This document shows, piece after piece, positions 20,250 through 37,548 of a DNA stretch of 40,868 nt (positions are counted from its first letter, which is position 1; each line of letters begins with the position of its first letter). This stretch comes from Terriglobia bacterium. Lineage in GTDB: Bacteria > Acidobacteriota > Terriglobia > Acidiferrales > UBA7541. The stretch covers positions 1-40,868 of the forward strand of contig JAIQGD010000020.1 in NCBI GenBank assembly GCA_020072765.1, written 5' to 3'. The position numbers and the translations under genes are program-made. The notes beneath the pieces were generated by a model, which did not search any database, was not told where the DNA came from, and worked only from the letters and a program-made list of their open reading frames with translations.

Positions 20250-23200
20250 ATGGATAACCAGTTTTTTGAACGCCCGATTCTGAACTCGCCGTACAGCTAC
20301 CCGGGACGCCATTGGGAGCTGGATAGCGCGGGACAGCCCACACAGAGGATTATCGAGACCCGGCGGCGTGCAGAGTTCATCACGCCGATCCCCAAGCCCA
20401 AGAAGCAAAAGCGAAAAGCGAGCCAGGACACACTGGTCTTTGACGAGGGTAAAGGGCTTTCGACAGAGAAGCAGCTATACGATCCAACGCCAATCATCAA
20501 TGATCTCCGCTATCACGTTGACGAATGGCGGAAGCTGCCGAATCCTCGGGACTGGCTGGTGACGCCCGAGACTGAACGTCTCCTTCAGCACTGGCGGCAC
20601 CACAGCTTCAGCAGTTTCCGGCCGTTCTTCTGCCAAGTCGAGGCCATCGAGACGGTCATTTGGCTGACCGAAGTCGCTCCAAAGGTGGGGAAGACTGGCA
20701 AAGGGTTCATCGAACACCTAGGAAATGCCAACCGAGACGCGAATCCTGATCTTATGCGCCTCGCCCTGAAGCTGGCGACAGGCGCGGGCAAAACGACAGT
20801 CATTGCGATGCTGATCGCGTGGCAGACCATCAATGCCAATCGCCGGTCTAATAGCCCACATTTCACGCGCGGATTTCTGGTCGTTGCACCCGGCCTGACA
20901 ATCAAGGATCGCCTGCGCCTCCTCCAACCCAACGACCCGGACAGCTACTATGTCAGCCGGGAATTGATCCCGAGTGACATGCTGGACGATCTCAAAAGGG
21001 CCAAGATCGTAATCACCAACTTTCACGCGTTCAAACTTCGCGAGCGCGTTGAACTATCGGCAGGCGGCCGGGCGCTCCTGCAAGGTCGGGGCGAGGAACT
21101 GAACACGCTTGAAACAGAAGGGCAGATGCTCCAGCGGGTAATGCCTGATCTGATGGGCATGAAAAACATCATGGTGCTCAATGACGAAGCGCACCATTGC
21201 TACCGCGAGAAGCCGGGAGCAGAAGACGAAGATGAGGATTTGAAGGGGGACGAGAAGAAAGAAGCCGAGAAGAACACCGAGGCCGCCCGTGTCTGGATTT
21301 CAGGCCTTGAGGCTGTAAACCGCAAACTCGGCGTCGCACGCGTCATTGACCTGTCTGCGACCCCCTTTTTCCTCAGCGGCTCGGGCTACGCCGAAGGCAC
21401 GCTATTCCCGTGGACGATGAGCGACTTCTCGCTCATGGACGCCATCGAGTGCGGCATCGTCAAGCTGCCGCGCGTCCCCGTGGCCGACAACATCCCCGGC
21501 GAAGAGATGCCCATGTTCCGCAACCTGTGGGAGCACATCCGGACAAAGATGCCCAAGAAGGGGCGGGGCAAGGGCGGCACACTCGATCCGCTCAGCCTCC
21601 CGCCACAACTCCAAACGGCTCTCGAAGCACTCTACGGTCACTACGAGAAGACATACCGTCTTTGGGAAAAGGCCGGCATCCGGGTGCCGCCTTGCTTCAT
21701 CGTGGTTTGCCAAAACACCGCCATCTCGAAGCTGGTTTACGACTTCATCTCCGGCTTTCTGCGGGAGAACGACGATGGCTCGACGACGCCTGTAAACGGA
21801 CGCCTCCCGCTTTTCCGCAACTTCGATGAACACGGCAACCCTTTCCCCCGGCCAAACACGCTGCTCATCGACAGCGAGCAACTCGAATCCGGCGAAGCGT
21901 TGGACGACAACTTCCGTGCAATGGCCGCCGATGAGATTGACCGCTTCCGCCGCGAGATCATCGAGCGCACCGGCGACCCCCGCCAAGCCGAACAAATCAC
22001 TGACCAGGAATTACTCCGCGAAGCCATGATTACCGTGGGGCGGCAAGGGCGGCTGGGCGGATCAATCCGCTGCGTCGTCTCCGTCGCCATGCTCACGGAG
22101 GGCTGGGATGCCCAGACTGTTACGCACGTGCTGGGCGTCCGCGCCTTCGGCACCCAGCTCCTCTGCGAACAGGTCATCGGCCGTGCCCTGCGGCGCCAGT
22201 CCTACGATCTGAATGAAGAGGGTTTGTTCAATGTGGAATACGCCGACATCTTGGGGATTCCCTTCGACTTTACCGCCAAGCCGGTCGTCGCTCCCCCGCA
22301 GCCGCCGCGTGAGACCATCCAGGTCAAGGCCGTGCGTCCCGACCGCGATGCACTTGAAATCCGTTTCCCGCGAGTCGTGGGCTATCGCGTTGAATTGCCC
22401 CAGGAGAGGCTAACGGCGGAGTTCAATGCGGACTCCGTGATGGAGCTAACCCCAGATCTAGTCGGCGCGACGGAGACTCAAAACTCGGGAATCATTGGCG
22501 AAAAAGTGGACCTCAATCTCGTTCACACCAGCGACGTTCGCCCTTCGCAGGTTTTGTATGAACTCGTGTCGCACCTCGTTTTGACCAAGTGGCGCGACCC
22601 AGGCGAAGATCCAAAGCTCCACCTCTTTGGCCAGCTCAAACGCATCGCCAAGGAATGGCTCGACGGTTACCTGGTGTGCAAAGGCGGCACATATCCGGCG
22701 CAGCTCAAATACAAGATGCTCGCCGACATGGCTTGCGAACGCATCACCGCCGGGATCGTACGAAAATTCGTTGGCCAACGACCGATCATCGCCTTGCTCG
22801 ACCCCTACAACCCCACCGGTTCCACCAGCCACGTCAATTTCAATACGTCCAAAACCGACCGCTGGGAGACAGACGCTCGCCGCTGTCACATCAACTGGGT
22901 GATTCTCGACAGCGACTGGGAGGCGGAATTTTGCCGCGTTGCCGAGTCACACCCACGCGTGCGGGCCTACGTCAAAAACCACAACCTCGGCCTTGAGGTG
23001 CCTTACCGCTATGGCTCGGAGATGCGCAAATACATCCCCGACTTTATCGTGCTGGTGGATGACGGGCACGGCGAGGGCGATCTCCTGCATCTGATCGTCG
23101 AGATCAAAGGCTACCGGCGCGAAGACGCGAAGGAAAAGAAATCCACGATGGACACCTACTGGGTGCCCGGCGTGAATCACATCGCCAAATATGGCCGTTG

Positions 23201-23321
23201 GGCTTTTGCCGAGTTCACTGAGGTCTATCAGATTCAGGCTGACTTCAAGGCCAAGGTCGAAAGCGAATTCAATAAAATGATCGAGGCCGTCACTGCCCAG
23301 CCGGTGGAGAAAAAAGAATAG
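20250..23321 (+). CDS. Type III-like restriction endonuclease/helicase (BPTD_3080-type)
   Basis: A 1023-residue SF2 helicase-nuclease, the restriction subunit of the operon. Motifs: Walker A LATGAGKTT (175-183), DEAH (312-315, NDEAHHC), SAT (369-371, DLSATPFF), then VAMLTEGWD and QVIGRALRR in the second RecA domain. A PD-(D/E)xK nuclease at the C-terminus has D931 (YIPDFIV) and E951-I-K953 (LIVEIKG). This layout matches NCBI's BPTD_3080-family restriction endonucleases. It should translocate on or cut DNA whose sites lack methylation by the next gene's product. Residues about 325-345 are a charged Glu/Lys/Asp-rich linker. It is first in a rightward operon; the methyltransferase starts 2 nt after its stop. 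The ribosome site is weak. Confidence 0.92.
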   Translation: MDNQFFERPILNSPYSYPGRHWELDSAGQPTQRIIETRRRAEFITPIPKPKKQKRKASQDTLVFDEGKGLSTEKQLYDPTPIINDLRYHVDEWRKLPNPRDWLVTPETERLLQHWRHHSFSSFRPFFCQVEAIETVIWLTEVAPKVGKTGKGFIEHLGNANRDANPDLMRLALKLATGAGKTTVIAMLIAWQTINANRRSNSPHFTRGFLVVAPGLTIKDRLRLLQPNDPDSYYVSRELIPSDMLDDLKRAKIVITNFHAFKLRERVELSAGGRALLQGRGEELNTLETEGQMLQRVMPDLMGMKNIMVLNDEAHHCYREKPGAEDEDEDLKGDEKKEAEKNTEAARVWISGLEAVNRKLGVARVIDLSATPFFLSGSGYAEGTLFPWTMSDFSLMDAIECGIVKLPRVPVADNIPGEEMPMFRNLWEHIRTKMPKKGRGKGGTLDPLSLPPQLQTALEALYGHYEKTYRLWEKAGIRVPPCFIVVCQNTAISKLVYDFISGFLRENDDGSTTPVNGRLPLFRNFDEHGNPFPRPNTLLIDSEQLESGEALDDNFRAMAADEIDRFRREIIERTGDPRQAEQITDQELLREAMITVGRQGRLGGSIRCVVSVAMLTEGWDAQTVTHVLGVRAFGTQLLCEQVIGRALRRQSYDLNEEGLFNVEYADILGIPFDFTAKPVVAPPQPPRETIQVKAVRPDRDALEIRFPRVVGYRVELPQERLTAEFNADSVMELTPDLVGATETQNSGIIGEKVDLNLVHTSDVRPSQVLYELVSHLVLTKWRDPGEDPKLHLFGQLKRIAKEWLDGYLVCKGGTYPAQLKYKMLADMACERITAGIVRKFVGQRPIIALLDPYNPTGSTSHVNFNTSKTDRWETDARRCHINWVILDSDWEAEFCRVAESHPRVRAYVKNHNLGLEVPYRYGSEMRKYIPDFIVLVDDGHGEGDLLHLIVEIKGYRREDAKEKKSTMDTYWVPGVNHIAKYGRWAFAEFTEVYQIQADFKAKVESEFNKMIEAVTAQPVEKKE

Positions 23322-23323
23322 TC

Positions 23324-26116
23324 ATGGCCAAGAAACCAACCACCAGCAAGACTGTGGAAGCCCTCAAGCACGCGGAGGCCAAGCGGAGAAATATCCCCAC
23401 CGCGGAATACCAGTCCGTCCTGCAAAAGAACGAGCAGGACCCCGTGCGCGTGGCTTACGAGCGCCGCAACCGTGACCTCGACCCGCAGCTCGTCTGGCGC
23501 GGCAAGGATGAGCAGGACTGGAGCGACCTCGTCGTCCACGCCCCGCCGCTCTACATCCAGGAAAAGGTGCAGCCGAAGGCGCTCATTGACGAGCTGCTGA
23601 GAGAGACGAGGGAGCGCGAGCACGACGCCGGGATGACCACGCCCGACCTCTTTGCCGACTTCAACGGCATCCCCAAGGGTGTGGACAAGACCGAGTTCTA
23701 CCAGCACGACCAGAACTGGTCGAACCGCATGATCCTTGGGGATTCCCTGCAAGTGATGGCTTCTCTTGCCGAGCGCGAGGGACTGCGCGGCAAGGTGCAG
23801 TGCATCTACTTCGACCCGCCCTATGGCATCAAGTTCAACAGCAACTTCCAGTGGTCCACCACCAGCCGCGACGTGAAGGACGGCAACACCGACCACATCA
23901 CCCGCGAGCCGGAGCAGGTGAAAGCCTTCCGCGACACATGGCGCGACGGCATTCACAGCTACCTCACCTACCTCCGCGACCGCCTCACTGTCGCCCGCGA
24001 TCTCCTCACCGATTCCGGCTCTATCTTCGTGCAGATCGGCGATGAAAATGTCCACCGCGTCCGGGCGGTGATGGATGAGGTGTTTCGTGATGAAAACTTC
24101 GTGTCGCAAATCGTCTTTGAGAAAACGAGCAGCACATCGACCGAGGAAATGGCGTCTATCAGCGACCACATCTTGTGGTTCGCAAAGAACAGGTCAGCCC
24201 TGAAATTCAGGGCGGCGTATCGGATGAAAGTTCTCGGTGAGCCAGGCACAACTCAATACGTGTGGTTTGACGAAGGATGCGGATATGACCGGAGATTGAG
24301 TGCCGAGGAAACCGCGAACAACGCCAACGAGATTGAACGAAGCAAAGTCTTTGCGTGTGACAACTTGACGAGCCAACGGCCCGCACAGGGGGCCGATGTA
24401 ACATCATTTCCATACAATGGAGCCGTCTTCACTCCTAGCAAAGGAACCTTCAAAACGGACGCAGGGGGATTGGCCCACTTGGCAAGGGCTGGGCGACTCC
24501 GTCCAATCGGCAAATCACTCATGTATCGCCGACTCTTATCGGACTTTCCCGTCGTTCCAATCGCGAACTACTGGAACGACGTAAAAATGACCGGATTCTC
24601 CGAGGACAAAACGTATATCGTGCAGACCGGTCAGAAGGTCATTGAACGCTGCCTCCTCATGGCCACCGACCCCAGCGACCTCGTGCTTGACCCGACCTGC
24701 GGCTCCGGCACCACCGCCACCGTCGCCGAGCAATGGGGCCGCCGCTGGATCACGATTGACACTTCGCGCGTGGCGCTGGCGCTTGCCCGTGCCCGCATCA
24801 TGGGCGCGCGTTATCCGTTTTACCTGCTAGCTGATTCGCGCGAAGGTCAGCTCAAGGAAGCCGAAGTCGTCCGCACAGTGCCGAGTTCGCAGCCAGTGCA
24901 CGGAAACATCCGGCACGGCTTCGTCTATGAGCGCGTGCCGCACATCATGCTCAGTTCCATCGCCAACAACGCGGAGATCGATGTCATCTGGGACACATGG
25001 CAGGGGAAGTTGGAGCCGTTGCGCAAGTCATTAAACACCGCACTCAAGAAGACCTGGCAGGAGTGGGAGATTCCGCGCAAGGCCGATGCCAAGTGGCCGG
25101 ACGCTGCGAAGAAGCTGCACGCCGACTGGTGGCAGGCCCGCATTGCCCGGCAGAAGGAGATCGACGCCTCCATCGCCGCCAAGGCAGAGTTCGAATATCT
25201 CTACGACAAGCCTTACGACGACAGGAAGACGGTCCGCGTGGCTGGGCCGTTCACAGTCGAGAGCCTCTCACCACACCGCGTGCTTGGTGTGGATGAAAAC
25301 GACGAATTGATTGACCCCGCAGCGAAAACCGGCGCTGGCTACGAGGAAAAGCAGACCTTCCCCCAGATGATCCTGGAGAACCTCAAGACCGCCGGTGTCC
25401 AGCAGGCGCACAAGGATGACCGGATCACATTCACCGCGCTCACGCCCTGGCCCGGCGAGATGGTCTGCGCTGAAGGCCGCTATCTGGAGGGCCATGCCGA
25501 GAAACGCGCAGCCATCTTCATCGGGCCTGAGTTCGGCACCGTCCAGCGGGCCGACCTGGTGGAAGCCGCCAAGGAAGCGGGCGATGCCGGATTCGATGTG
25601 CTGATCGCCTGCGCCTTCAACTACGAGGCGCACGCCACGGAGTTCAGCAAGCTGGGCCGCATCCCCGTGCTCAAGGCACGGATGAACGCCGACCTGCACA
25701 TGGCCGGCGACCTCAAGAACACCGGCAAAGGCAACCTCTTCGTCATCTTCGGGGAGCCGGACATCACGCTCCTTACGGAGAAAGACGGCAAGATCCGCGT
25801 GAAGGTCAACGGCGTGGATGTGTTCCACCCACAAACGGGCGAAGTTCGCAGCGACGGGGCGGAGGGCATCGCTTGCTGGTTCATCGACACCGACTACAAC
25901 GAGGAGAGCTTCTTCGTCCGCCACGCCTATTTCCTCGGTGCGAACGATCCATACAGCGCGCTCAAAACCACTCTCAAAGCCGAGATCAACGAGGAAGCCT
26001 GGGCTACGCTGCATAGCGACACCTCCCGCGCCTTCCCTAAACCGAAATCGGGCCGCATCGCCGTGAAGGTGATCAACCACCTGGGGGATGAAGTGATGAA
26101 GGTTTTTAAGGTATGA
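23324..26116 (+). CDS. Type III-like DNA methyltransferase (Mod subunit)
   Basis: A 930-residue adenine-specific (or N4-cytosine) DNA methyltransferase. DPPYGIKF at 164-171 precedes the AdoMet-binding DPTCGSGTT at about 455-463, the beta-class order of type III Mod proteins. The region between them (about 200-430) is the likely target-recognition part; its DNA composition is lower in GC near 24.1-24.6 kb than the flanks, as expected if this module is exchanged. The C-terminal 300 residues (e.g. FDVLIACAFNYEAHATEF, NADLHMAGDLKNTGKGNLF) are an extension beyond classical Mod length. They are typical of partners of this Res type, with unknown role. It should protect host DNA and confer specificity on the Res protein. 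Its stop overlaps the DUF429 start as ATGA. Confidence 0.93.
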   Translation: MAKKPTTSKTVEALKHAEAKRRNIPTAEYQSVLQKNEQDPVRVAYERRNRDLDPQLVWRGKDEQDWSDLVVHAPPLYIQEKVQPKALIDELLRETREREHDAGMTTPDLFADFNGIPKGVDKTEFYQHDQNWSNRMILGDSLQVMASLAEREGLRGKVQCIYFDPPYGIKFNSNFQWSTTSRDVKDGNTDHITREPEQVKAFRDTWRDGIHSYLTYLRDRLTVARDLLTDSGSIFVQIGDENVHRVRAVMDEVFRDENFVSQIVFEKTSSTSTEEMASISDHILWFAKNRSALKFRAAYRMKVLGEPGTTQYVWFDEGCGYDRRLSAEETANNANEIERSKVFACDNLTSQRPAQGADVTSFPYNGAVFTPSKGTFKTDAGGLAHLARAGRLRPIGKSLMYRRLLSDFPVVPIANYWNDVKMTGFSEDKTYIVQTGQKVIERCLLMATDPSDLVLDPTCGSGTTATVAEQWGRRWITIDTSRVALALARARIMGARYPFYLLADSREGQLKEAEVVRTVPSSQPVHGNIRHGFVYERVPHIMLSSIANNAEIDVIWDTWQGKLEPLRKSLNTALKKTWQEWEIPRKADAKWPDAAKKLHADWWQARIARQKEIDASIAAKAEFEYLYDKPYDDRKTVRVAGPFTVESLSPHRVLGVDENDELIDPAAKTGAGYEEKQTFPQMILENLKTAGVQQAHKDDRITFTALTPWPGEMVCAEGRYLEGHAEKRAAIFIGPEFGTVQRADLVEAAKEAGDAGFDVLIACAFNYEAHATEFSKLGRIPVLKARMNADLHMAGDLKNTGKGNLFVIFGEPDITLLTEKDGKIRVKVNGVDVFHPQTGEVRSDGAEGIACWFIDTDYNEESFFVRHAYFLGANDPYSALKTTLKAEINEEAWATLHSDTSRAFPKPKSGRIAVKVINHLGDEVMKVFKV

Positions 26117-26721
26117 CGGGAGGCGGAGCGCCGTGGGTCGGGGCTGATCCTGGCGGCGAAGGCAACTTCGGCATCGCCATCCTGACAGACAGCCATGAGC
26201 CGCAAACCTTATCCGTGGATTGCGCCGATGAGGCACTCGCTTTCGTTCGCGCGCATCTCGACCGCATGCCCGCAGGTGTAGGCGTTGACGCCCCCCTGTG
26301 GTGGTCGTCCGGGCGTTCAGGTGACCGCTCTGCGGATCAATGGCTGCGCCAGCGATACGGGCTCCCCGGCGGCGAAGTGCAGGCAGCGAATTCGCTACGT
26401 GGTGCAGCGCTGACCCAAGGGGCGATGTTCGTCCAACGGATGCGAGAAATCTATCCCGCCGTGCCCGTAACCGAGAGTCATCCGAAAGCTCTCCTGAAAG
26501 CGCTGACACAAGGCAATTGGAAAGCATTTGCAGGTCGTTTCGGGCTAAACACTGCCATCTCAAACGACCACGAACGAGATGCTCTCATTGCCGCTGTCTC
26601 CGCAAGAGAAGGATTTCAAGGAAGGTGGCCGCACGATCTGAGCATTAAGCGGCTACCAGCCGAGCAGGACCCCAGTAGCTATTGGCTGGCACCGATTCAT
26701 TACTTTTGGCCCGAGCAATAA
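26113..26721 (+). CDS. DUF429-type RNase H-fold protein
   Basis: A 202-residue protein with the DUF429 (predicted RNase H-like nuclease) pattern: a first strand WVGADPGGEGNFGIAIL carrying the initial aspartate, a second acidic site in GVGVDAPLWWS, and a C-terminal HERDALIAA helix carrying the last acidic residue. The likely activity is metal-dependent cleavage of a nucleic acid, substrate unknown. It overlaps the methyltransferase by 4 nt (ATGA) and the helicase by 1 nt (TAATG). DUF429 is rarely considered part of restriction systems; its tight coupling here suggests a real accessory role. Confidence 0.8.
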   Translation: MTGGGAPWVGADPGGEGNFGIAILTDSHEPQTLSVDCADEALAFVRAHLDRMPAGVGVDAPLWWSSGRSGDRSADQWLRQRYGLPGGEVQAANSLRGAALTQGAMFVQRMREIYPAVPVTESHPKALLKALTQGNWKAFAGRFGLNTAISNDHERDALIAAVSAREGFQGRWPHDLSIKRLPAEQDPSSYWLAPIHYFWPEQ

Positions 26722-28874
26722 TGGAATTCCTAATCGCAGACACGTTCACTGACAGCCTTGCACGATTGACGGGTGAGGAGCAGAAGGCTGTGAAGACCAC
26801 GGCCTTTGACCTGCAACTGAACCCGGCGCAACCCGGAATGAATTTTCACAAGTTGGATAAAGCGAAGGACAAGAAGTTTTGGTCAGTGCGCGTCAGCGGC
26901 GACCTTCGTCTGATCGTGCATAGGACCGGAACCAGCCTGTTGCTGTGTTACGTCAGTCACCACGACGAAGCGTACCAATGGGCTGAGCGCAGGAAGCTGG
27001 AAACCCACCCCAAGACCGGAGCTGCTCAGTTAGTTGAGATCCGCGAAAGAATCCAGGAAATCACCATCCCGAAATATGTAGAATCCGGACCAACGGTGAG
27101 CGCGAAGCCCTTGCTATTTGCAAACCTGCCCGACAGTGAATTGCTTGGCTACGGCGTCCCTTCGGAGTGGTTGCCCGATGTGCGCAGCGCGAACGAAGAA
27201 ACTCTTCTGGAACTCACCGACCATCTTCCCAAAGAGGCAGCGGAGGCGCTGCTGGACCTTGCGACCGGAGCGACACCGCAAACTGTTCGGCTAATCCCGC
27301 CGCGACTCGAAGTGAGAGCAAGCCCCAAAGCTAGGGAGATTGCTCAACCACGGTCAATTCCGCCGCAGTTGAGACCGGCCGTGGTGTCAGCGGGATCATT
27401 TGAACATCCGGACGCTAGGCGGCGGTTCCGTCTGATAAACAATCTGGAAGAGTTGGAGCGAGCCCTCGACTATCCCTGGGAGAAATGGACCGTCTTTCTG
27501 CACCCCACGCAACGCGAACTGGTGGAGCGCGAATTCAACGGTCCCGCCCGCGTTTCCGGCTCGGCAGGGACAGGCAAAACCATTGTTGCACTTCATCGCG
27601 TCGCTTATCTTGCCCGCACGAACCCTGATTCGCGTCTTTTGCTCACCACGTTTTCCGACCCCTTGTCGAATGCGCTGAGGACGAAACTCAGACATCTGAT
27701 AGGGAATGAGCCGCGCCTTGGAGAACGCATCGAAGTACACGCGATGAATTCCATCGGCAAGCGGCTCTACGAAGCCAATCTTGGGAAACCTCAGTTCGCA
27801 AGCACTGAAAGAATCCGAGAATTAGTTGAGCAGGCGGCTCGGGGCACCAGCGAGAGCCGATTCTCGCTACAGTTCCTGATGGCCGAATGGGAGCAGGTTG
27901 TTGATGCATGGCAATTGGAAACATGGGAGGCGTATCGTGACGTCACGCGGTTGGGACGTAAAACCCGCCTGAAAGAACCGCAGCGGGCCATCATTTGGTC
28001 GATCTTCGAGCAAGTAAGATCAAACCTCAAGGCCCAGGAGCTGATTACACGGTCCGAAATGTTCAGCAGGCTCGCATCATTTTATGCGGGAAACGTCTCT
28101 GTGCCCTTTGATTTTATGGTCGTTGATGAAGCGCAAGACGTGAGTATTGCTCAGCTTCGGTTTCTGGCTGCCCTGGGCAGGGATCAAGGGAACAGCCTGT
28201 TCTTTGCCGGGGATCTGGGCCAGAGGATATTCCAGCAGCCATTTTCGTGGAAGGCGCTGGGCGTGGATATACGAGGACGCTCGACGACCCTCGGAATTAA
28301 CTACCGGACGTCACATCAGATCAGGATGCAGGCGGATAGGCTGCTGGGACCAGAACTGGCGGATGTGGATGGGACGGTAGAAAAGCGCAAGGCGACTTCA
28401 CTCTTTAATGGGCCGCCTCCCACAATCCAAACTCTGGATTCCATTGAACAGGAAACGAAGACTGTAAGTGAGTGGCTGGAGGCAAGGACGAAGGAAGGCC
28501 TTCTGCCCCATGAAATCGCGATCTTTGTGCGTTCTGCCGCTGAATTGGATCGAGCGCAGGCAGCCGTGGAACGTGCGGGGCTTCCATTTAAGGTGCTCGA
28601 CGACACGGTTGAGACGGCGCAAGGAAAAGTCTCAATTGCCACGATGCACCTTGCTAAGGGATTGGAATTCCGCGCCGTCGCGGTGATGGCTTGCGACGAC
28701 GAAGTCATACCGCAACAGAAACGAATCGAAACCGTTGCCGATGACTCTGATCTCGAAGAGGTCTACAACACGGAACGGCATCTGCTCTATGTTGCTTGTA
28801 CTCGCGCCCGAGATCATTTATTGGTGACGAGCGTCTCTCCAGCCTCAGAGTTCTTGGACGACCTGCGGACATGA
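26721..28874 (+). CDS. RelE-fold/UvrD-like SF1 helicase
   Basis: A 717-residue protein. Residues 1-95 resemble a RelE/ParE toxin fold (FHKLDKAKDKKFWSVRVSGD, LRLIVHRTG, LLLCYVSHHDEAYQWAERR). Residues 95-235 are a linker. From about 255 on there is a UvrD/Rep-type SF1 helicase with Walker A GSAGTGKT (280-287), Walker B VDEAQD (D469), INYRTS, an ATMHLAKGLEF motif V and VACTRARDHL motif VI. The toxin-like domain is a known N-terminal addition in some COG0210 helicases and may bind RNA or ribosomes, or simply be structural. The start at 26721 is chosen for the TAATG overlap with DUF429; a frame extension to 26682 lies inside that gene. It is the last gene of the operon and probably unwinds DNA or R-loops for the system. 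Confidence 0.88.
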   Translation: MEFLIADTFTDSLARLTGEEQKAVKTTAFDLQLNPAQPGMNFHKLDKAKDKKFWSVRVSGDLRLIVHRTGTSLLLCYVSHHDEAYQWAERRKLETHPKTGAAQLVEIRERIQEITIPKYVESGPTVSAKPLLFANLPDSELLGYGVPSEWLPDVRSANEETLLELTDHLPKEAAEALLDLATGATPQTVRLIPPRLEVRASPKAREIAQPRSIPPQLRPAVVSAGSFEHPDARRRFRLINNLEELERALDYPWEKWTVFLHPTQRELVEREFNGPARVSGSAGTGKTIVALHRVAYLARTNPDSRLLLTTFSDPLSNALRTKLRHLIGNEPRLGERIEVHAMNSIGKRLYEANLGKPQFASTERIRELVEQAARGTSESRFSLQFLMAEWEQVVDAWQLETWEAYRDVTRLGRKTRLKEPQRAIIWSIFEQVRSNLKAQELITRSEMFSRLASFYAGNVSVPFDFMVVDEAQDVSIAQLRFLAALGRDQGNSLFFAGDLGQRIFQQPFSWKALGVDIRGRSTTLGINYRTSHQIRMQADRLLGPELADVDGTVEKRKATSLFNGPPPTIQTLDSIEQETKTVSEWLEARTKEGLLPHEIAIFVRSAAELDRAQAAVERAGLPFKVLDDTVETAQGKVSIATMHLAKGLEFRAVAVMACDDEVIPQQKRIETVADDSDLEEVYNTERHLLYVACTRARDHLLVTSVSPASEFLDDLRT

Positions 28875-29272: not shown

Positions 29273-32200
29273 TCATTGTCGCGATCGGTTGGCAAGAAAT
29301 GCCGCTGTTTCTGACCGGATCTGTACCGCAACGGCGTCGAGTCGCGTACACAGCGTATTCAGGATCGTCTGGAAAGCTTCCCAGAAGTTCCGGTCCGTCT
29401 GAAGCTCCTTTCGGCAGCTTCGCCATGCTGTCCGCACGGCTGACGAAAGCGCGTCCGTCAATCTTTCTTGCCGCCACTCGTAGTCCTCGAAAGAGTCCAT
29501 CGCTTTGGCGAGTTGCGGGAGACCCATCGGAAGAAGTACGCTCCCGGAATCCGATGCCAGAAGATAGGCGAAGGAGACCGCACTCCCCGCGTGACCGAGC
29601 CACGCCCTTACCCACCGACCGTACTCGGGCGCCATGTTCTCAAGGAGAGCTCGATATTCCACGCGTCCGAGCAATTGGACTCCGTAACGCTGTCCCATCA
29701 GGCTGCTCCAAAGAGTCTCCAACCGGTACCAATTCCGGCCTCCTTTGGTTGCCCATACGGTCGAGCCGTTTGCAAACTCGACCATCTCTTTCCAGACGCG
29801 TGCGAAGCGATCTTGGCTCACGCCTTCGCTCAACCCGACGCGGAAAAACTCGATGAGGAATCCCTCAACCCACTCTTCCGCAACTACACCCTGCTCCAGG
29901 ATGGGGCGCCAAAATCGTTCGGCTTTCTCGCGGGAGAGATCGGTACAAATCACATGGGCCGCTATTTGAAAGACCCACCGGTCAAAATCATAGATCGGGC
30001 CATGACTCCGGTCGGCGTTTTCATCCATCACCTTGGGCATCATGCTCAGCTCAAAATCCAAGAATTCCCCGCACCACCTGAGGATATCGTTACGCTCGGC
30101 CCCTGATGCAGTCTCGATTGCGGGTCCTAGGAAAGCGAAACTTAGGCGCAGGACTTCCAGATCAAGGCCAGAGTTTCGGCGCGACGTACCATCCTCACGC
30201 TCACGGTGGGCAGCGTATTCAATTTCCCAAGGTCGGCTCTTTCGTATGCGCTTTCTTGCCAGCCTGGTTCCCAAGCGATCAGCCCTGTCGAGCGACGTTG
30301 GCATCGTTGCGATTCTTCCCCGAAGATAGCGCCCAAGGAGCAGATTCCGGCAGTAGCTTAACGCATCAGTGTCCGTCCCTGAGTAGACCGCTTCGCGTGC
30401 CGCGCGGCGCAGGGCCGCCCAGAGCACAATCAGATTTAGCAATCTCGGAAACTCCACACCCAAGTTGGTTCGCAAACGGTAAGCCGTGCTCAACACGTAG
30501 AGCGTCGCCTGATATTGGAGTGCCGTCGCACCACGAACCACGGCTCGCTTAACCCATTCCTCGTGGAGTTCTGGTAATAGAGCGACGGCGGCCTCTCCCA
30601 GGAACCCTTCTGGTGACAGTTGGTATATGTCGTACTCCCCGGTGCGCTCCGGCACTGGCCGCGATGCGTAATCACGAAGCGTTTCGATGCACCAAGACTC
30701 GACCGCCGGATTGGCTTTCAACCGATCACGATGATCGATTAGCAAGACCGCAATACCTCCGATTACGCCTGCGGCAGCTGACTCGGCCAGAAATTCCTCG
30801 CGATTTCCCCCGTACCCCGAGAGGAATTGGACGCTCTGGAAGAAGGACATGAGGTGTTCATGCGGAATGTGTTTTTGTCCAGATAGACATTCCCGTGAGA
30901 ACCTTGGGAAGGTGAGGGCCAAAGTTCGCAATTTTAGCTCGCGCGACCGCTCACTGAGACGCGCTTCGAGATGCGGAGGCCAATTGCCCTCGAAATCGGT
31001 ACTGCCGTCTTCGAGCTGCACTGCGTGGTAGTTGGCGGGATCAAATCGGGCGAGGAAAAACTCCAGCCGTTCGCGATCCTCCCCGGCGTCCGGGAGGACC
31101 TTCTCCCACTCCGGTCGTCGAGCCGCGAGATATTCTCCCGTCTCTTTGTCTTCGAGCATGAGCCGCGGAGCCAGATCTTGCAACAAAAGCGTACGATGGC
31201 TCATCTGATGCCAATCCTGCGCGAGACCAATTGCCTTCTTTCCCTGGTTCGCCCAAGCGATCATACCAATCGACCAAATGCGCTCGCGGTCCTGCTCAGC
31301 CAGGGCGGATTGAAAGAAATAGACCTCCAAGGTTCCGAGCAACGGTCGTAGAACACCTATAAATCCGCTCGGTTGCTTGAGCCCCACTGCGGTGAGCACG
31401 CCAGCCACCGCCAGCGATCTGTTCATTTCATAGATTTGTTTCACCCAGGGATCGATACTTTCTCCCCGATCCAACAGATCGTAAAACCATTTCTCAAGCG
31501 CCATCAAAGCGCATACGACAACCTCAGGTGTTCCCGTGGCGTTTCGATACCATCCAAAAACGTTGGAATCACCCGCCCATGACACTGCCTCGCCCGGAAG
31601 CACAATCCGGAGGCCGCACTTCTGATAGTCGTCCGGTTGGGGCTTGTGGCCGCTGACCCTTCTTACCCACTCCTCTGTTGCGTAGTTCACGAGACGTAGT
31701 ATCGCGTCAACGCCGGCCTTCGGCGAGAGCCTCAAAAATCCACCGAACGCCCCCTTCCAATACATCGGCGGAGAGCCGCCGCGCCAGTGCGCAAAACCAG
31801 GAAGCGTAAAGGGGGCCGCTCCCGATTCACTTCGACTGCGGGGCTCCTCCAAGCAAACAGCGAGGAGCACCTCCAGAGCGACCTGAGGTTCGATGGCAAT
31901 GAGACCGTCGAGCGCTGGGGTGTCGAGAACAGCCGATCGGAAACCGGAAGGAACTCGCCGATCTGGCCCGTCCGCGGCCGGAGACGTAAGCGTCGCGTCC
32001 AAGGACGCTGGATGTGGCGCGAAGACCTTATTCCTCACTCGCTTAACGCCTTCCTTGTCCTGACTCTGCTGCATTGCCTGACGCTCTCGCGCCTGACGCA
32101 CCTCGGCCGCAATGCCTCGCTGAACGACCACGTCCGAATCGTTTCGGCGCCCGGCCAGCTCTAAAGCCACTTCGGAAACCTCCTTCGGGTATTCCGGGGC

Positions 32201-34585
32201 GGCCCGGAGCAACGCCTCATAGACCGGGCGGTCAACCTGCTCCGTGATGATGACTCCCTCGGCCAACAACCCCTGTATCTCCCGCGCGAGTTCGATCGCA
32301 ACCGCTCCTGCTTCGGTCCGACCAGGAAATCCAGGAGGCATCGTCCGAAGCCATAGCTCAACTGCCTGAGATGCCTGGTACGGTGCGTATCGTGCGACGT
32401 CGCTCGCGTGCCGCTGCAGAACACGTAGAACGGGCAGCCAATAGAGCGGGTGCGGTATGCGGAACCAAGCCGTCGCGAGATCGGCATCCTCTGGATCAAC
32501 TTCCTCTTTCATTCTCCAATCCGGAACGGTTGCCGAATGCAAGAGACGCGCCAGTAGGCGGCCGAGTATTTTCCCTTTCTCTGCAATCAAGTCGGGCCAT
32601 ACTTGTTCAAGCAGAGGCTCTACGTTCGCCGCATAAACAATGCCATCGAGAAATAGATCCGTGGTGAGAGCCGCTTCGACTGTCTGCGTCGCTGAAGTGC
32701 CGAGGATTGCCTTCCAGCCCGCAAGCCCTCCCTCCTGTTCCGCGAGCCCCTGAGCGTAAAGGCGAATCGCCCGGGCCCAAGAAGGTATGGCAACGCTTTC
32801 GCGAATCCGCTTGCCAACGTCGTTTCCAGAAGCGAGCAAGACGCGAAATCTAGCCCAGTCACCGATCAAGTCGTGCGAGAACTGCACGGAAGATTCGGTC
32901 ACGCGGATGACGCCGTCTCTCTGCAGGTCCTGGAGGATGCCGAGTTGCGCAGTTGGAATGCTTTCGAGCGGTACGGCGCCGCCGATTCGCTCTCCTTCCT
33001 TTTCGCCGATGGATCGAAGCAATGCATCCCGCCGAAGTCGATCATTCGGTTGACCGCAAAAATGCTGCCAAATCCATCTGATAAGTTCCGCTTCACCTAC
33101 CCATGCCCGCTTTTCGTCAAAAGGATGAATTCGTTCAGTATTGATCACCCAATGGAGAATGGCTAGATTGCAGAGAATCGGCTGGAGTTCTCTTCGGTGG
33201 AACAATCGCGCCACACCTGGGGCCGTCGCGATCTTCCCGGCGATTTGGTCGGGCTTGGGCTTCGCAAAAGTAAGGACTTCGACGCTGCTGAGACCGGCGT
33301 CGAGAAGAGCACGTCGCGCGTCCAGCCAACTCTGATCTTGTGTGGTGATGAGAATTCTCCAGTGCTTGTCCGCGCCATTGGCCACCGTGCGGACCAATTC
33401 AATGGCCCTCGCGCGGGCATCGCCTTCAAAACGCTCGAAACTGTCCAGGACGAGAATGCCGCGGCTGCTCGTGGAGGTTTCGAGCAAGACCCTGAGAGGA
33501 TGTTGCAATCCGAGATGCTCCGTCAGGTCTGGCTCGCTCGGCTGGTTCAGTTGTTCAGGCTTCAACCAAATGATTCGATCGAACCTGACTCCCTTGCCGA
33601 CCACTAGCGAGACCAGTGCAGATTTGCCGCTTCCCGATTCTCCCACAAGAGCGACAGCTCGATTCTGGACGAGCGAGCCCGCCAGCGTTTGTTCCTCTTT
33701 CTCCCGGTTCAAGTGAATATTGTCGCCAAGAGTTGTGCGGATTTGCGCCATATTGGCCGCCGAACGGCGGCTAACGTTTTCCCAATCTGCCCGGTAATCT
33801 GGATAGTCCTTGAGCTCCACGTCGCCCCGTATTGCGGCCAGCAATCGCGGGACGGAAATTGATGCTCCTGTCGTCCGGCTTTCCGCGGCAAGACCAACCA
33901 GGCATTTCCACAATTGCACGCCGGTCGCGACTGTTTCGGCTTGCGTGCAACGGCTGCACTGCGAGATTGCCTGTCCCTCGTCCGTCGATTGGGGGAACTC
34001 AAAATCAAACGAGAAAACACGAATGCGACTTAAGAGACTCGCCGCCTCTGTTGCTCCGAGTGCTGTCCCTGGTACTGGATCATCAGAACGCAGCACGCTT
34101 TCATAAATGCGCCGCTGAATCGCCGAGGACGCGGCGAGACGCGCTTCCAATCGGTCCGCCGCGCCGCTGGCGGCTTGCCTTTGCAACTCGGCAAACTCGA
34201 GTAGCACTGAGCTCGCCACGCCACTGGTCGCGAGTCCGAGATAGTCACTTTGGCGATCGAACGTCGCGTTCGGCACGCCGCGCCACTGCTCCCATGCGTC
34301 TCGAACAAATTCTTTGGCAAATCCGTTCTTAGTGAGCTTCGAATCGCTCTTCGTCGAAATCGCATAGCGCATTGTTTCCAAGCCATCTCTTAAAATCAAT
34401 AGTAGGTCGTCGAACAGCCAGCCACTCTCTCGTGTCTCGAATTGCACTTCCGTAATCACGCCATGCTGGGTTCCGAGCGAGGGCGTACGGCTCAACATTT
34501 GTAATAAGAACCACGCAGCGACCTTGTCGGCGAAGGAAAAGCCTCCTCCTCCCGTTTCCTTCGTTGTTGCCAGCTCACGAGTCAT
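29273..34585 (-). CDS. Nuclease-STAND NTPase, Avs/AVAST-like immune sensor
   Basis: A 1770-residue single-gene defence candidate. The N-terminal domain (about 12-215) starts with the GGGGFSFADKVAAWFLLQML pattern and has a PD-(D/E)xK-like set: E46 (ITEVQFE), D59/D60 (WLFDDLLLI) and K79 (AISTKSD). It is close to Cap4/Avs-type nucleases. A STAND NTPase follows with Walker A GESGSGKS (315-322) and Walker B GILVLDSFERF (376-386). The remaining about 1200 residues are helical repeats, the expected sensor region that would bind a phage protein. By analogy with Avs proteins, sensing should trigger oligomerisation and DNA degradation. The ATG at 34585 is chosen over the TTG at 34633, because a consensus -10 occupies 34633-34638 and the TTG would lie within it. 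A second copy or partner gene is not seen. Confidence 0.85.
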   Translation of the reverse strand: MTRELATTKETGGGGFSFADKVAAWFLLQMLSRTPSLGTQHGVITEVQFETRESGWLFDDLLLILRDGLETMRYAISTKSDSKLTKNGFAKEFVRDAWEQWRGVPNATFDRQSDYLGLATSGVASSVLLEFAELQRQAASGAADRLEARLAASSAIQRRIYESVLRSDDPVPGTALGATEAASLLSRIRVFSFDFEFPQSTDEGQAISQCSRCTQAETVATGVQLWKCLVGLAAESRTTGASISVPRLLAAIRGDVELKDYPDYRADWENVSRRSAANMAQIRTTLGDNIHLNREKEEQTLAGSLVQNRAVALVGESGSGKSALVSLVVGKGVRFDRIIWLKPEQLNQPSEPDLTEHLGLQHPLRVLLETSTSSRGILVLDSFERFEGDARARAIELVRTVANGADKHWRILITTQDQSWLDARRALLDAGLSSVEVLTFAKPKPDQIAGKIATAPGVARLFHRRELQPILCNLAILHWVINTERIHPFDEKRAWVGEAELIRWIWQHFCGQPNDRLRRDALLRSIGEKEGERIGGAVPLESIPTAQLGILQDLQRDGVIRVTESSVQFSHDLIGDWARFRVLLASGNDVGKRIRESVAIPSWARAIRLYAQGLAEQEGGLAGWKAILGTSATQTVEAALTTDLFLDGIVYAANVEPLLEQVWPDLIAEKGKILGRLLARLLHSATVPDWRMKEEVDPEDADLATAWFRIPHPLYWLPVLRVLQRHASDVARYAPYQASQAVELWLRTMPPGFPGRTEAGAVAIELAREIQGLLAEGVIITEQVDRPVYEALLRAAPEYPKEVSEVALELAGRRNDSDVVVQRGIAAEVRQARERQAMQQSQDKEGVKRVRNKVFAPHPASLDATLTSPAADGPDRRVPSGFRSAVLDTPALDGLIAIEPQVALEVLLAVCLEEPRSRSESGAAPFTLPGFAHWRGGSPPMYWKGAFGGFLRLSPKAGVDAILRLVNYATEEWVRRVSGHKPQPDDYQKCGLRIVLPGEAVSWAGDSNVFGWYRNATGTPEVVVCALMALEKWFYDLLDRGESIDPWVKQIYEMNRSLAVAGVLTAVGLKQPSGFIGVLRPLLGTLEVYFFQSALAEQDRERIWSIGMIAWANQGKKAIGLAQDWHQMSHRTLLLQDLAPRLMLEDKETGEYLAARRPEWEKVLPDAGEDRERLEFFLARFDPANYHAVQLEDGSTDFEGNWPPHLEARLSERSRELKLRTLALTFPRFSRECLSGQKHIPHEHLMSFFQSVQFLSGYGGNREEFLAESAAAGVIGGIAVLLIDHRDRLKANPAVESWCIETLRDYASRPVPERTGEYDIYQLSPEGFLGEAAVALLPELHEEWVKRAVVRGATALQYQATLYVLSTAYRLRTNLGVEFPRLLNLIVLWAALRRAAREAVYSGTDTDALSYCRNLLLGRYLRGRIATMPTSLDRADRLGTRLARKRIRKSRPWEIEYAAHREREDGTSRRNSGLDLEVLRLSFAFLGPAIETASGAERNDILRWCGEFLDFELSMMPKVMDENADRSHGPIYDFDRWVFQIAAHVICTDLSREKAERFWRPILEQGVVAEEWVEGFLIEFFRVGLSEGVSQDRFARVWKEMVEFANGSTVWATKGGRNWYRLETLWSSLMGQRYGVQLLGRVEYRALLENMAPEYGRWVRAWLGHAGSAVSFAYLLASDSGSVLLPMGLPQLAKAMDSFEDYEWRQERLTDALSSAVRTAWRSCRKELQTDRNFWEAFQTILNTLCTRLDAVAVQIRSETAAFLANRSRQ

Positions 34586-34660: not shown

Positions 34661-35125
34661 CGGAGGCGTGATTGTGACATCTGACGAAATTAGGAAGTAT
34701 ATGCAACGAGAATTCACCATCGATTGCCCGCGCATGGTCCTTCGCAAAAACACCGAATCCAGTCATAGGGACTACGAGGGGCTGCCCACAACCCCACCGC
34801 CAATCAAGTAACCGTCCTGCAATGAGGCAATTCCAAATAGAAACGTCGACCCACCCAATTCATGTTTTTGGGCAGCTGTCCGCAGCTGTAGCCCATCCTC
34901 AATCAGGTATTTCCCGAAGGTCTGAACCGTCACACGCTCGGTATGGGCTATCTGTGCAAGTGCACCTCGACAGTGAATTAGGAGAAATGCGGCACGTTTT
35001 CCGAAAGTTCGAGCACTAATATTCTCCGATAGGCACATGCCGGGGAAGCATCGTCGCAAATTCGGCCAGAAAGCACCGATTTTCGCTCACTGCAGGAGAT
35101 TCAGAGAAAAACGAAGACTGAATGG
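34661..35125. other. Intergenic region between the STAND gene and tRNA-Ser
   Basis: 465 nt with only short overlapping frames. The longest, leftward at 34772-35059 (95 residues), has no recognisable domain or ribosome site. I see no attachment-site repeat of the tRNA-Ser 3' end in it. Confidence 0.4.
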
Positions 35126-35212
35126 CGGAGGGGGTGGGATTCGAACCCACGAGACCCTTTCGGGCCTAACGGTTTTCAAGACCGCCGCCTTCAACCGCTC
35201 GGCCACCCCTCC
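35126..35212 (-). tRNA. tRNA-Ser(UGA)
   Basis: An 87-nt type II tRNA. The 7-bp acceptor GGAGGGG/CCCCTCC is followed by G73. The D-arm region is GGCCGAGCGGTTGAAGGC. The anticodon stem GCGGT/ACCGT encloses loop CTTGAAA, giving anticodon TGA. A long variable arm of GGCCC..GGGTC type is present, and the T-arm GTGGG/CCCAC encloses TTCGAAT. CCA is not encoded. It sits within the defence island, between the STAND protein and the Mrr-PIN protein, where tRNA genes often serve as integration anchors. Confidence 0.95.
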
Positions 35213-35367: not shown

Positions 35368-37548
35368 ATGAGTGAGAAGAGATTGCAATTGGCTCTTGAG
35401 AGGCTCTCATTTAGTGATTGGGAGCGATTCGAACGATTTGCGTCTGAGTTTTTAGCCGCCGAAATGCCAGATCTAAGAACTGTTGCTGGGCCCTCTGGGG
35501 ATGGGGGGCGGGACGCTGAATTATTTTCGCCAGTAGATGATCCCACGCAGGTCATTCAATATTCAGTTGCCCGGGATTGGGAACAGAAGATCAAGAGTAC
35601 CGCCACTCGAATATCTGAAACTATTCCGTCAGCCCAGATTCTCATTTACGTTACTAACCAAGTTATCGGCGCTGGCGGGGACAAAATTAAGAAGGAGCTA
35701 CGGAACAACCGGCATCTTCACTTAGACATTCGAGATCGCAGCTACTTCCTTGAGAGGTATCGCAAAGATTCACGCACAGAATCGGCTGCTGAGCATCTCG
35801 CCCGAGACATTGTCGATCCTTATTTGGTCTCGGAAGGGGTGCTGACGCGCCGTCCCCCAGTTCTCGCAACGCACGAGGCGAGAGCCGCGCACGTTTACCT
35901 TTCGCTCCAGTTGCGCGACGAAGCTCAAGAAAAAGGCCTCACCAAACTGTCCTTCGAGGCCCTCGTGAGATCGGTCCTCAGTCGAACAAACTCGGAGCAC
36001 CGAATGTCGCGGGATGACATTAAACGGAGAGTGCGCGAGCTTGTGCCCAATGACCCCGCTGAGCGCGTAGACCATCTGACGAACCGCGCACTGTTACGAC
36101 TGACGAAGCATGCCATTCGACACTGGGTCAAACCCGACGAGTTCTGTTTGACATACGAAGAGAGTGAACGCGTTGCCGAATTTTTGGCCAGCCAGGAGCT
36201 CGGTGAGGTTGCGCTATTAGCTGAAATCCGGGGGGTTGTAGGAGCGCTTGCTCCTGTGCAAGGTGACGCGCCCGCAGAGATCGATGCCGCTACGACGCGC
36301 GTTCGCCGAATTCTCGAACGGTGCCTCTACGACAGGGCTGAGTCATTTGCTTCTTCTATACTCGCTGGCGACGTAAAAGGATTCGCTACGGATCATCTCC
36401 ATGAAGTCGTTCTGAATGATCTTCGTGTCAACATTGCAGTAAAAGGTAGCGCGGACTCCAACCCAGCATGGCTCGAGTCTCTGACGCGTGAGATTCTCGC
36501 AAGTCCCGGCGAAGCGACTCGGCTCTATCTACGTGACTTGGCCGATGCATACACGGTCCTAGCATTCCTCCGACAAACTCCTGATGTGCAGGGCGCTGTG
36601 GACAAAATGTTCTCACACGGCGAGGTCTCGCTTGACACGTCCGCAATACTCCCATTGCTCGCGGAAGAACTGCTTGAGGATCGCAAAGGCCAATTTCAGC
36701 AAATGATAGACATAGCGATCAAGGCCGGCCTAACCTTTTTCGTGACCGACGGAGTCGTAGAAGAACTTGATCGTCACATCAATCGTGCATTGGTTTGCTG
36801 TCGGACGTCTTCATGGGATGGACGACTGCCGTTCCTTTATGAGGCCTTTCTTCAGACGGGACGCGCGGCTGGAGAATTTCCCTCGTGGACCGAGCTGTTT
36901 CGAGGGCCTAATCGGCCCGTGGACGATATCTTCGACTTTCTGCGAGAAAGATTCAGCATTGAGCGCCGAAGTCTTGAAAAAATCGCGTCAGAAGCGGAGG
37001 GGGATTTTCGGCACGCCGTGCAGGAGATCTGGCACACCATTCATACTAAACGCCGTGAAAGGACCAACAATTTTGACCCGATAACAGTGACCCGCTTGAG
37101 TAGACATGATACGGAGAACTATGTCGGAGTGATCCAGCTCCGCAGCCAAGAGAAACCGTCGCCGTTTGGATACAGTGCGTGGTGGTTAACGCTCGATCAC
37201 GCTGCACTTGGAGTCGGTGAGCAGCTCAAGCGGCAGGGCATCAGTCCGCCAGATTCACCAGTACTCAGTCTTGATTTCCTATCTCAGTACCTTACGCTTG
37301 GACCCGTTCGCTCCCGCGTGGCAAAGAGTGCGCTGCGGAGCTTGCCGGTACTGCTTGAACCAAGACTTGTGCGCTTCTTGACACCAGACCTTCTCGATGA
37401 AGCCTCTCGGATACGCAAAGAAATGAAAGATGTGCCTGAGCGAGTTACGCGAAGACGAATTCGCGACCATCTTGATGAAGCCCGACGACGCATGGGCCCC
37501 CTGGCGCAGAGAGGAGTAGAAACGTTCTTTGACGAAATCAAGAACTAG
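35368..37548 (+). CDS. Mrr-like nuclease fused to a PIN-like domain
   Basis: A 726-residue candidate defence protein. The N-terminal Mrr-type nuclease domain (about 14-130) has WERFERFASEFL, GDGGRDAELF (D49 as the metal ligand), QYSVARDW (Q64) and K74. This is the arrangement found at the N-terminus of many anti-phage NTPases, but here no NTPase follows. The middle (150-400) is helical and unrecognised. The C-terminal half has a PIN-like set: D423 (VSLDTSAIL), E465/E466 (FVTDGVVEELDRHI), D581 (RHDTEN) and D610 (WWLTLDHAA). Two nuclease activities, DNA and RNA, are therefore predicted in one chain. No partner gene is adjacent; tRNA-Ser lies 156 nt upstream on the opposite strand. The start is an ATG with a weak ribosome site. 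The PIN call is less certain than the Mrr call. Confidence 0.75.
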   Translation: MSEKRLQLALERLSFSDWERFERFASEFLAAEMPDLRTVAGPSGDGGRDAELFSPVDDPTQVIQYSVARDWEQKIKSTATRISETIPSAQILIYVTNQVIGAGGDKIKKELRNNRHLHLDIRDRSYFLERYRKDSRTESAAEHLARDIVDPYLVSEGVLTRRPPVLATHEARAAHVYLSLQLRDEAQEKGLTKLSFEALVRSVLSRTNSEHRMSRDDIKRRVRELVPNDPAERVDHLTNRALLRLTKHAIRHWVKPDEFCLTYEESERVAEFLASQELGEVALLAEIRGVVGALAPVQGDAPAEIDAATTRVRRILERCLYDRAESFASSILAGDVKGFATDHLHEVVLNDLRVNIAVKGSADSNPAWLESLTREILASPGEATRLYLRDLADAYTVLAFLRQTPDVQGAVDKMFSHGEVSLDTSAILPLLAEELLEDRKGQFQQMIDIAIKAGLTFFVTDGVVEELDRHINRALVCCRTSSWDGRLPFLYEAFLQTGRAAGEFPSWTELFRGPNRPVDDIFDFLRERFSIERRSLEKIASEAEGDFRHAVQEIWHTIHTKRRERTNNFDPITVTRLSRHDTENYVGVIQLRSQEKPSPFGYSAWWLTLDHAALGVGEQLKRQGISPPDSPVLSLDFLSQYLTLGPVRSRVAKSALRSLPVLLEPRLVRFLTPDLLDEASRIRKEMKDVPERVTRRRIRDHLDEARRRMGPLAQRGVETFFDEIKN

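Follow-up and report, generated by a model that had tools for sequence, protein, structure and literature searches.

A giant protein with an Avs4-type sensor and a Cap4-like nuclease in a Terriglobia bacterium, member of a widespread sister lineage of Avs4

The gene and its surroundings

The gene described here lies in a window of 40,868 nucleotides, the whole stretch of Terriglobia DNA that was analysed, and is read from the minus strand, a point absent from the preliminary description of this DNA (Table 1). An alternative TTG start would lengthen the product from 1770 to 1786 aa, but the ATG was preferred because the N-termini of homologues coincide with it, beginning about ten residues ahead of a conserved GGxGFxFE motif. 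The reading frame runs through 1770 codons without an internal stop, and relatives of about 1750–1800 aa align with the protein over its full length.

Table 1. Features of the gene, its product and its neighbours, with window coordinates.
Feature	Position	Strand	Remarks
Type III restriction-modification pair	20250..26116	+	neighbour
NERD+UvrD-type helicase	26682..28874	+	neighbour
Whole gene	29273..34585	-	1770 aa, ATG start; homologues begin at the same place
Avs4-type sensor, helical repeats (aa 601-1770)	29276..32785	-	model; structure and profile comparisons
Most conserved sensor core (aa 944-1137), ALMALE motif and beta-hairpin	31175..31756	-	part best matched by Avs4 HMMs
NACHT/STAND NTPase and winged-helix region (aa 263-600)	32786..33799	-	NLRC4 and NOD2 folds; Avs4 profile
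MHD-like motif HDLIGDWAR (aa 571-579)	32849..32875	-	H571 and D572 invariant
Walker B ILVLD (aa 377-381)	33443..33457	-	D381 invariant
Walker A GESGSGKS (aa 315-322)	33620..33643	-	conservation in 56-sequence alignment
PD-(D/E)xK nuclease, Cap4-like (aa 1-262)	33800..34585	-	model, pLDDT mostly >90; match to Cap4 6wam
S77-T78-K79, motif III	34349..34357	-	S77 and K79 invariant in 56 members
D60, predicted catalytic Asp, motif II	34406..34408	-	invariant in 56 members and in a wider 36-row alignment
E50, Gln in 98% of family	34436..34438	-	found in the three A19 proteins
A19, Glu in 98% of family	34529..34531	-	of those examined, only L016 and L069 share it
tRNA-Ser(tga)	35123..35212	-	upstream of gene

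The gene sits between a defence cluster and the tRNA-Ser, that is, in a defence-island context. The cluster is compact (20250-28874, plus strand), with the type III restriction-modification pair, a DUF429 ORF and the NERD+UvrD-type helicase following one another. The window was searched for a repeat of the tRNA-Ser 3' end, which would mark an island boundary, and contains none. Adjoining the tRNA-Ser is an ORF of 726 aa (35368-37548, plus strand) that has no significant match in Pfam, NCBIfam or PADLOC. At the contig end (25-6332) lie a large terminase gene (Terminase_6C, minus strand), an adjacent small ORF, a ParB_N/N6-N4 methyltransferase and a serine recombinase; together they belong to a prophage or mobile element that is truncated where the contig stops. 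A conserved partner gene was sought in 76 loci: each neighbour family was present in five of them at most, and the most frequent ones resemble type I restriction genes, transposases and a helicase. Since no partner gene is conserved, the protein probably acts alone, as a single-gene system. Avs2 and Avs4 act as single proteins.

Domain anatomy

AlphaFold2 models, built on an alignment of 56 sequences, give from N to C terminus a PD-(D/E)xK nuclease, a NACHT/STAND NTPase and a helical sensor of about 1170 residues. The model of residues 1-640 has a mean pLDDT of 89; that of the C-terminal 1176 residues (mean pLDDT 89.3, pTM 0.85) consists of helical repeats with two beta-hairpins. The preliminary description had proposed an Avs-like protein in the order nuclease, STAND NTPase, sensor, with a PD-(D/E)xK-like N-terminus, Walker A and B motifs and some 1200 residues of helical repeats, and all of this was upheld by the models, the profile comparisons and the conservation of the motifs. 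That the protein has this anatomy and is kin to Avs4 can be regarded as very nearly certain.

The predicted nuclease has the alpha-beta-beta-beta-alpha-beta core of its superfamily (helices at 15-32 and 91-101; strands at 43-49, 61-67, 70-79 and 115-121), with D60 and K79 modelled at the expected places. In structure comparisons, residues 9-264 matched the nuclease of Cap4 (6wam; Z 13.3, rmsd 4.3, 199 residues aligned), and hhalign linked the domain to Cap4-type relatives (probability 99.9%, E 3e-32), while no similarity was detectable to the effectors of Avs4 (probability 0.2%, E 0.27) or Avs2 (E 0.53). Sequence searches of the nuclease against Pfam and the PDB gave no significant match, so that its class rests on the fold and on the relatives, among them L018, the N-terminus of which is matched by the PADLOC profile DUF626_VIII (E 1e-26). 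As modelled, the effector is a Cap4-like PD-(D/E)xK domain, and it is predicted to cleave DNA.

Conservation was judged on 56 full-length sequences, the window's own included. Motif III of this lineage is S-x-K, neither Q-x-K nor E-x-K, just as the S-T-K noted in the preliminary description, and it is invariant in all 56, which argues against a sign of decay. Deeper relatives with the same nuclease carry Q-x-K in the 36-row alignment, and S-x-K is thus probably a conserved, derived state. A second peculiarity is restricted to a few members. The window protein, L016 and L069 combine A19 with E50, where Glu19 and Gln50 are found in almost every other member. In the tree these three proteins group in a supported clade (L016 and L069 at 37-45% identity), and a single shared event therefore suffices. 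We infer a catalytic acid relocated from position 19 to 50. With the near-invariant E19 lost, activity of the window copy could be reduced unless E50 stands in for it.

The NTPase is STAND/NLR-like, with Walker A, Walker B, an MHD-like motif and a NACHT fold. Its fold matched NLRC4 (Z 22.2) and NOD2 (Z 20.9), and G315, S317, G318, G320, K321 and D381 are invariant in the 56 sequences. By hhalign it matches the NTPase of Avs4 (99.0%, E 7e-18 over 302 columns); in a domain-by-domain matrix the E-value was 2e-19 against Avs4 and 4e-9 against Avs2.

The sensor had been described earlier as not obviously like any named Avs type, a view overturned by structure, Foldseek and profile comparisons, which all give Avs4. 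Superposed on the EcAvs4-portal structure (8dgf), the sensor model aligned over 904 residues (Z 24.5, rmsd 6.5), the next-best fold being an unrelated, generic helical repeat (Z 11.1), and Foldseek returned Avs4 at E ~1e-19 (TMq 0.61-0.63), with other listed matches at TMq 0.24 or less. Profile comparison with named Avs4 gave 99.7% (E 8e-26, 1012 columns), Avs4 was the sole significant match of the sensor HMM in the PDB (E 3e-17), and the domain-by-domain matrix gave E 4e-21. The Avs2 sensor, used as a negative control, showed no similarity (E 0.18). According to model and profiles, the sensor is an Avs4 fold across its whole length, at a sequence identity of only about 13% and with the C-terminal third as its least conserved part. 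For the N-terminal half, the listed matches include Avs3 (8dgc; Z 13.5, rmsd 16.9), which is absent among the listed sensor rows.

Relatives and known systems

Full-length relatives, 38% and 30% identical, turned up when 396 genomes of the phylum were searched. Scanning GTDB with the single window protein as query yielded no relative, and scanning it with alignment A1 yielded at least 77 loci; those listed are from Acidobacteriota, Bacteroidota, Pseudomonadota, Cyanobacteriota, Planctomycetota, Verrucomicrobiota, Myxococcota, Nitrospirota and others, so the lineage occurs in at least eight phyla. The closest named relatives among the loci listed are L068 and L069, both of Acidobacteriota. Known phage records held no relative and viral contigs held two; some relatives are plasmid-borne, beside integrases, transposases and restriction genes.

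In the NTPase tree, in which the bootstrap is incompletely settled and long branches are present, the window lineage (25 rows, 99/96) is separate from a clade of Avs4 and bridging relatives (100/99), and Avs2 lies far outside both. A tree of STAND and sensor regions showed the same split. The preliminary description had called for an NTPase phylogeny and a structural comparison with known Avs proteins: these gave the sensor fold of Avs4, but did not place the protein within canonical Avs4. Among Avs models, only that of Avs4 was matched by the window protein in PADLOC and NCBIfam. On NF041815 it scored 57.8 bits against a cut-off of 1500, and the Avs4 model was matched, weakly, by 22 of 27 members of the family (best E 9e-29), compared with 2362 bits for the EcAvs4 control on the PADLOC Avs4 model and 1552 bits for an Avs2 control on the Avs2 model. 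The Avs5 model NF041814 had no matches in the phylum and none in the controls either. NF041812, guessed to be another Avs model, proved to be an unrelated family.

Of the known systems, Avs4 (AVAST type 4; EcAvs4 WP_000240574) shares with the window protein the STAND NTPase, the whole sensor fold, a similar total length and the single-gene arrangement, but its nuclease is from another family, common to Avs4 and Avs2. With a score below the curated cut-off, a nuclease of another type and a position outside the Avs4 clade, the window protein was not filed as Avs4: it is a member of a widespread sister lineage that is unnamed in standard defence catalogues. The bridging proteins L019, L060 and L061 have the same nuclease type and the same order of STAND and sensor, but their sensors are far closer to Avs4 (654-732 bits for L019) and their motif reads Q-x-K. 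The CBASS nuclease Cap4 (6wam, 6vm6) is alike in the N-terminal nuclease fold, over about 200 residues, but cyclic oligonucleotides activate it by way of a SAVED domain, whereas the window protein has a STAND-sensor and S-x-K. The PADLOC predicted candidate PDC-M54A is weakly similar over nuclease and NTPase (E 5e-11), with no match reported over the sensor. Avs2 and Avs5 share the general logic of effector, STAND and sensor, but neither the sensor nor the nuclease of Avs2 is detectably similar, and the effector of Avs5 is SIR2 (PMC12931631).

Avs4 is the reference bacterial NLR reading the phage portal by shape, and the window lineage is its broad sister group, the proteins of which are missed by Avs4 models at the curated cut-off. 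Its members share the sensor fold of Avs4 at about 13% identity and bear effectors of several kinds. They offer natural material for testing which sensor region determines the ligand, and for asking whether the portal is recognised through fold or through sequence.

Proposed mode of action and effector exchange

Once terminase, portal or a further phage protein has been sensed, the nucleases of Avs1-4 cleave phage and host DNA (PMC12931631), and Avs4 senses the portal (PMC12724215). We consider it reasonably probable that the window protein, too, is an NLR-like antiphage protein, in which the portal triggers DNA-cleaving abortive infection. At rest it would be a nucleotide-bound monomer in the off state. 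Upon infection, the sensor solenoid would recognise by shape a conserved structural protein of the phage, most probably the portal, which would dock along it; the NTPase would then change state and the protein would oligomerise (Avs4 forms a tetramer), after which the clustered nucleases would cut phage and host DNA, so that the cell is killed or stalled before phage release. Of the two parts of this scheme, DNA-cleaving abortive infection as the output is quite likely; the portal as trigger, a first guess because the sensor is akin to a known portal sensor, stands at slightly better than even by analogy with Avs4.

The ligand may indeed have changed relative to that of Avs4, given the low sensor identity and the weak conservation of the C-terminal third. 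The same architecture and killing could then serve a sensor with a different phage ligand, be it the terminase, an early protein or a structural protein other than the portal, a possibility that we hold as tentative. Ligands do shift inside Avs, as a portal triggered an Avs2, showing that ligand is not strictly tied to type (PMC13141931), and Avs5 is triggered by an unrelated jumbo-phage protein (PMC12931631); the separate clade of the lineage points the same way. However, the sensor retains the fold throughout, in the ALMALE...HR core as well as in the aligned hairpin regions, as would be expected if it had stayed with one ligand class. It is also conceivable, and held with the same reserve, that the lineage is a separate Avs type, an Avs4 solenoid that reads a different phage protein, perhaps a new one as the preliminary description had suggested, and is joined to a Cap4-like nuclease whose active site is rearranged (S-x-K and, in the window copy, Glu moved from 19 to 50). 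Decay of the window copy, or a dead effector, is improbable. Such a reading could draw on the loss of E19, the Ser in place of Gln or Glu in motif III, and D81 and K83, which differ from the common N and Q; but D60, S77 and K79 are invariant in the 56 members, the ORF is intact, and A19 recurs together with E50 in two other proteins of the same clade. To judge from the alignment, this pattern looks like a moved acidic residue rather than decay.

Whatever the trigger, the effector is modular, since relatives with the same STAND and sensor bear other effectors. In L108 (1902-7460), a PNP-type nucleosidase precedes the STAND-sensor, and the protein is 53% identical to the nuclease-bearing L128 across 1518 residues of STAND and sensor; as read from the sequences, this is a recent effector swap with a sharp boundary. 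L125, L135 and L143 have a further N-terminal domain, of about 350-400 aa with a VEGREDLDRF motif, which has no Pfam match of its own. Canonical Avs4 groups with bridging proteins that retain the Cap4-like nuclease, so that the swap may have taken place in Avs4 itself, depending on the root. Cyanobacterial members (L074, L081 and L088) have a short N-terminus in place of the nuclease. At all three loci a homologous ORF of about 700 aa lies less than 2 kb away, with an N-terminus that looks similar, and it is perhaps an effector acting in trans via paired adaptor domains.
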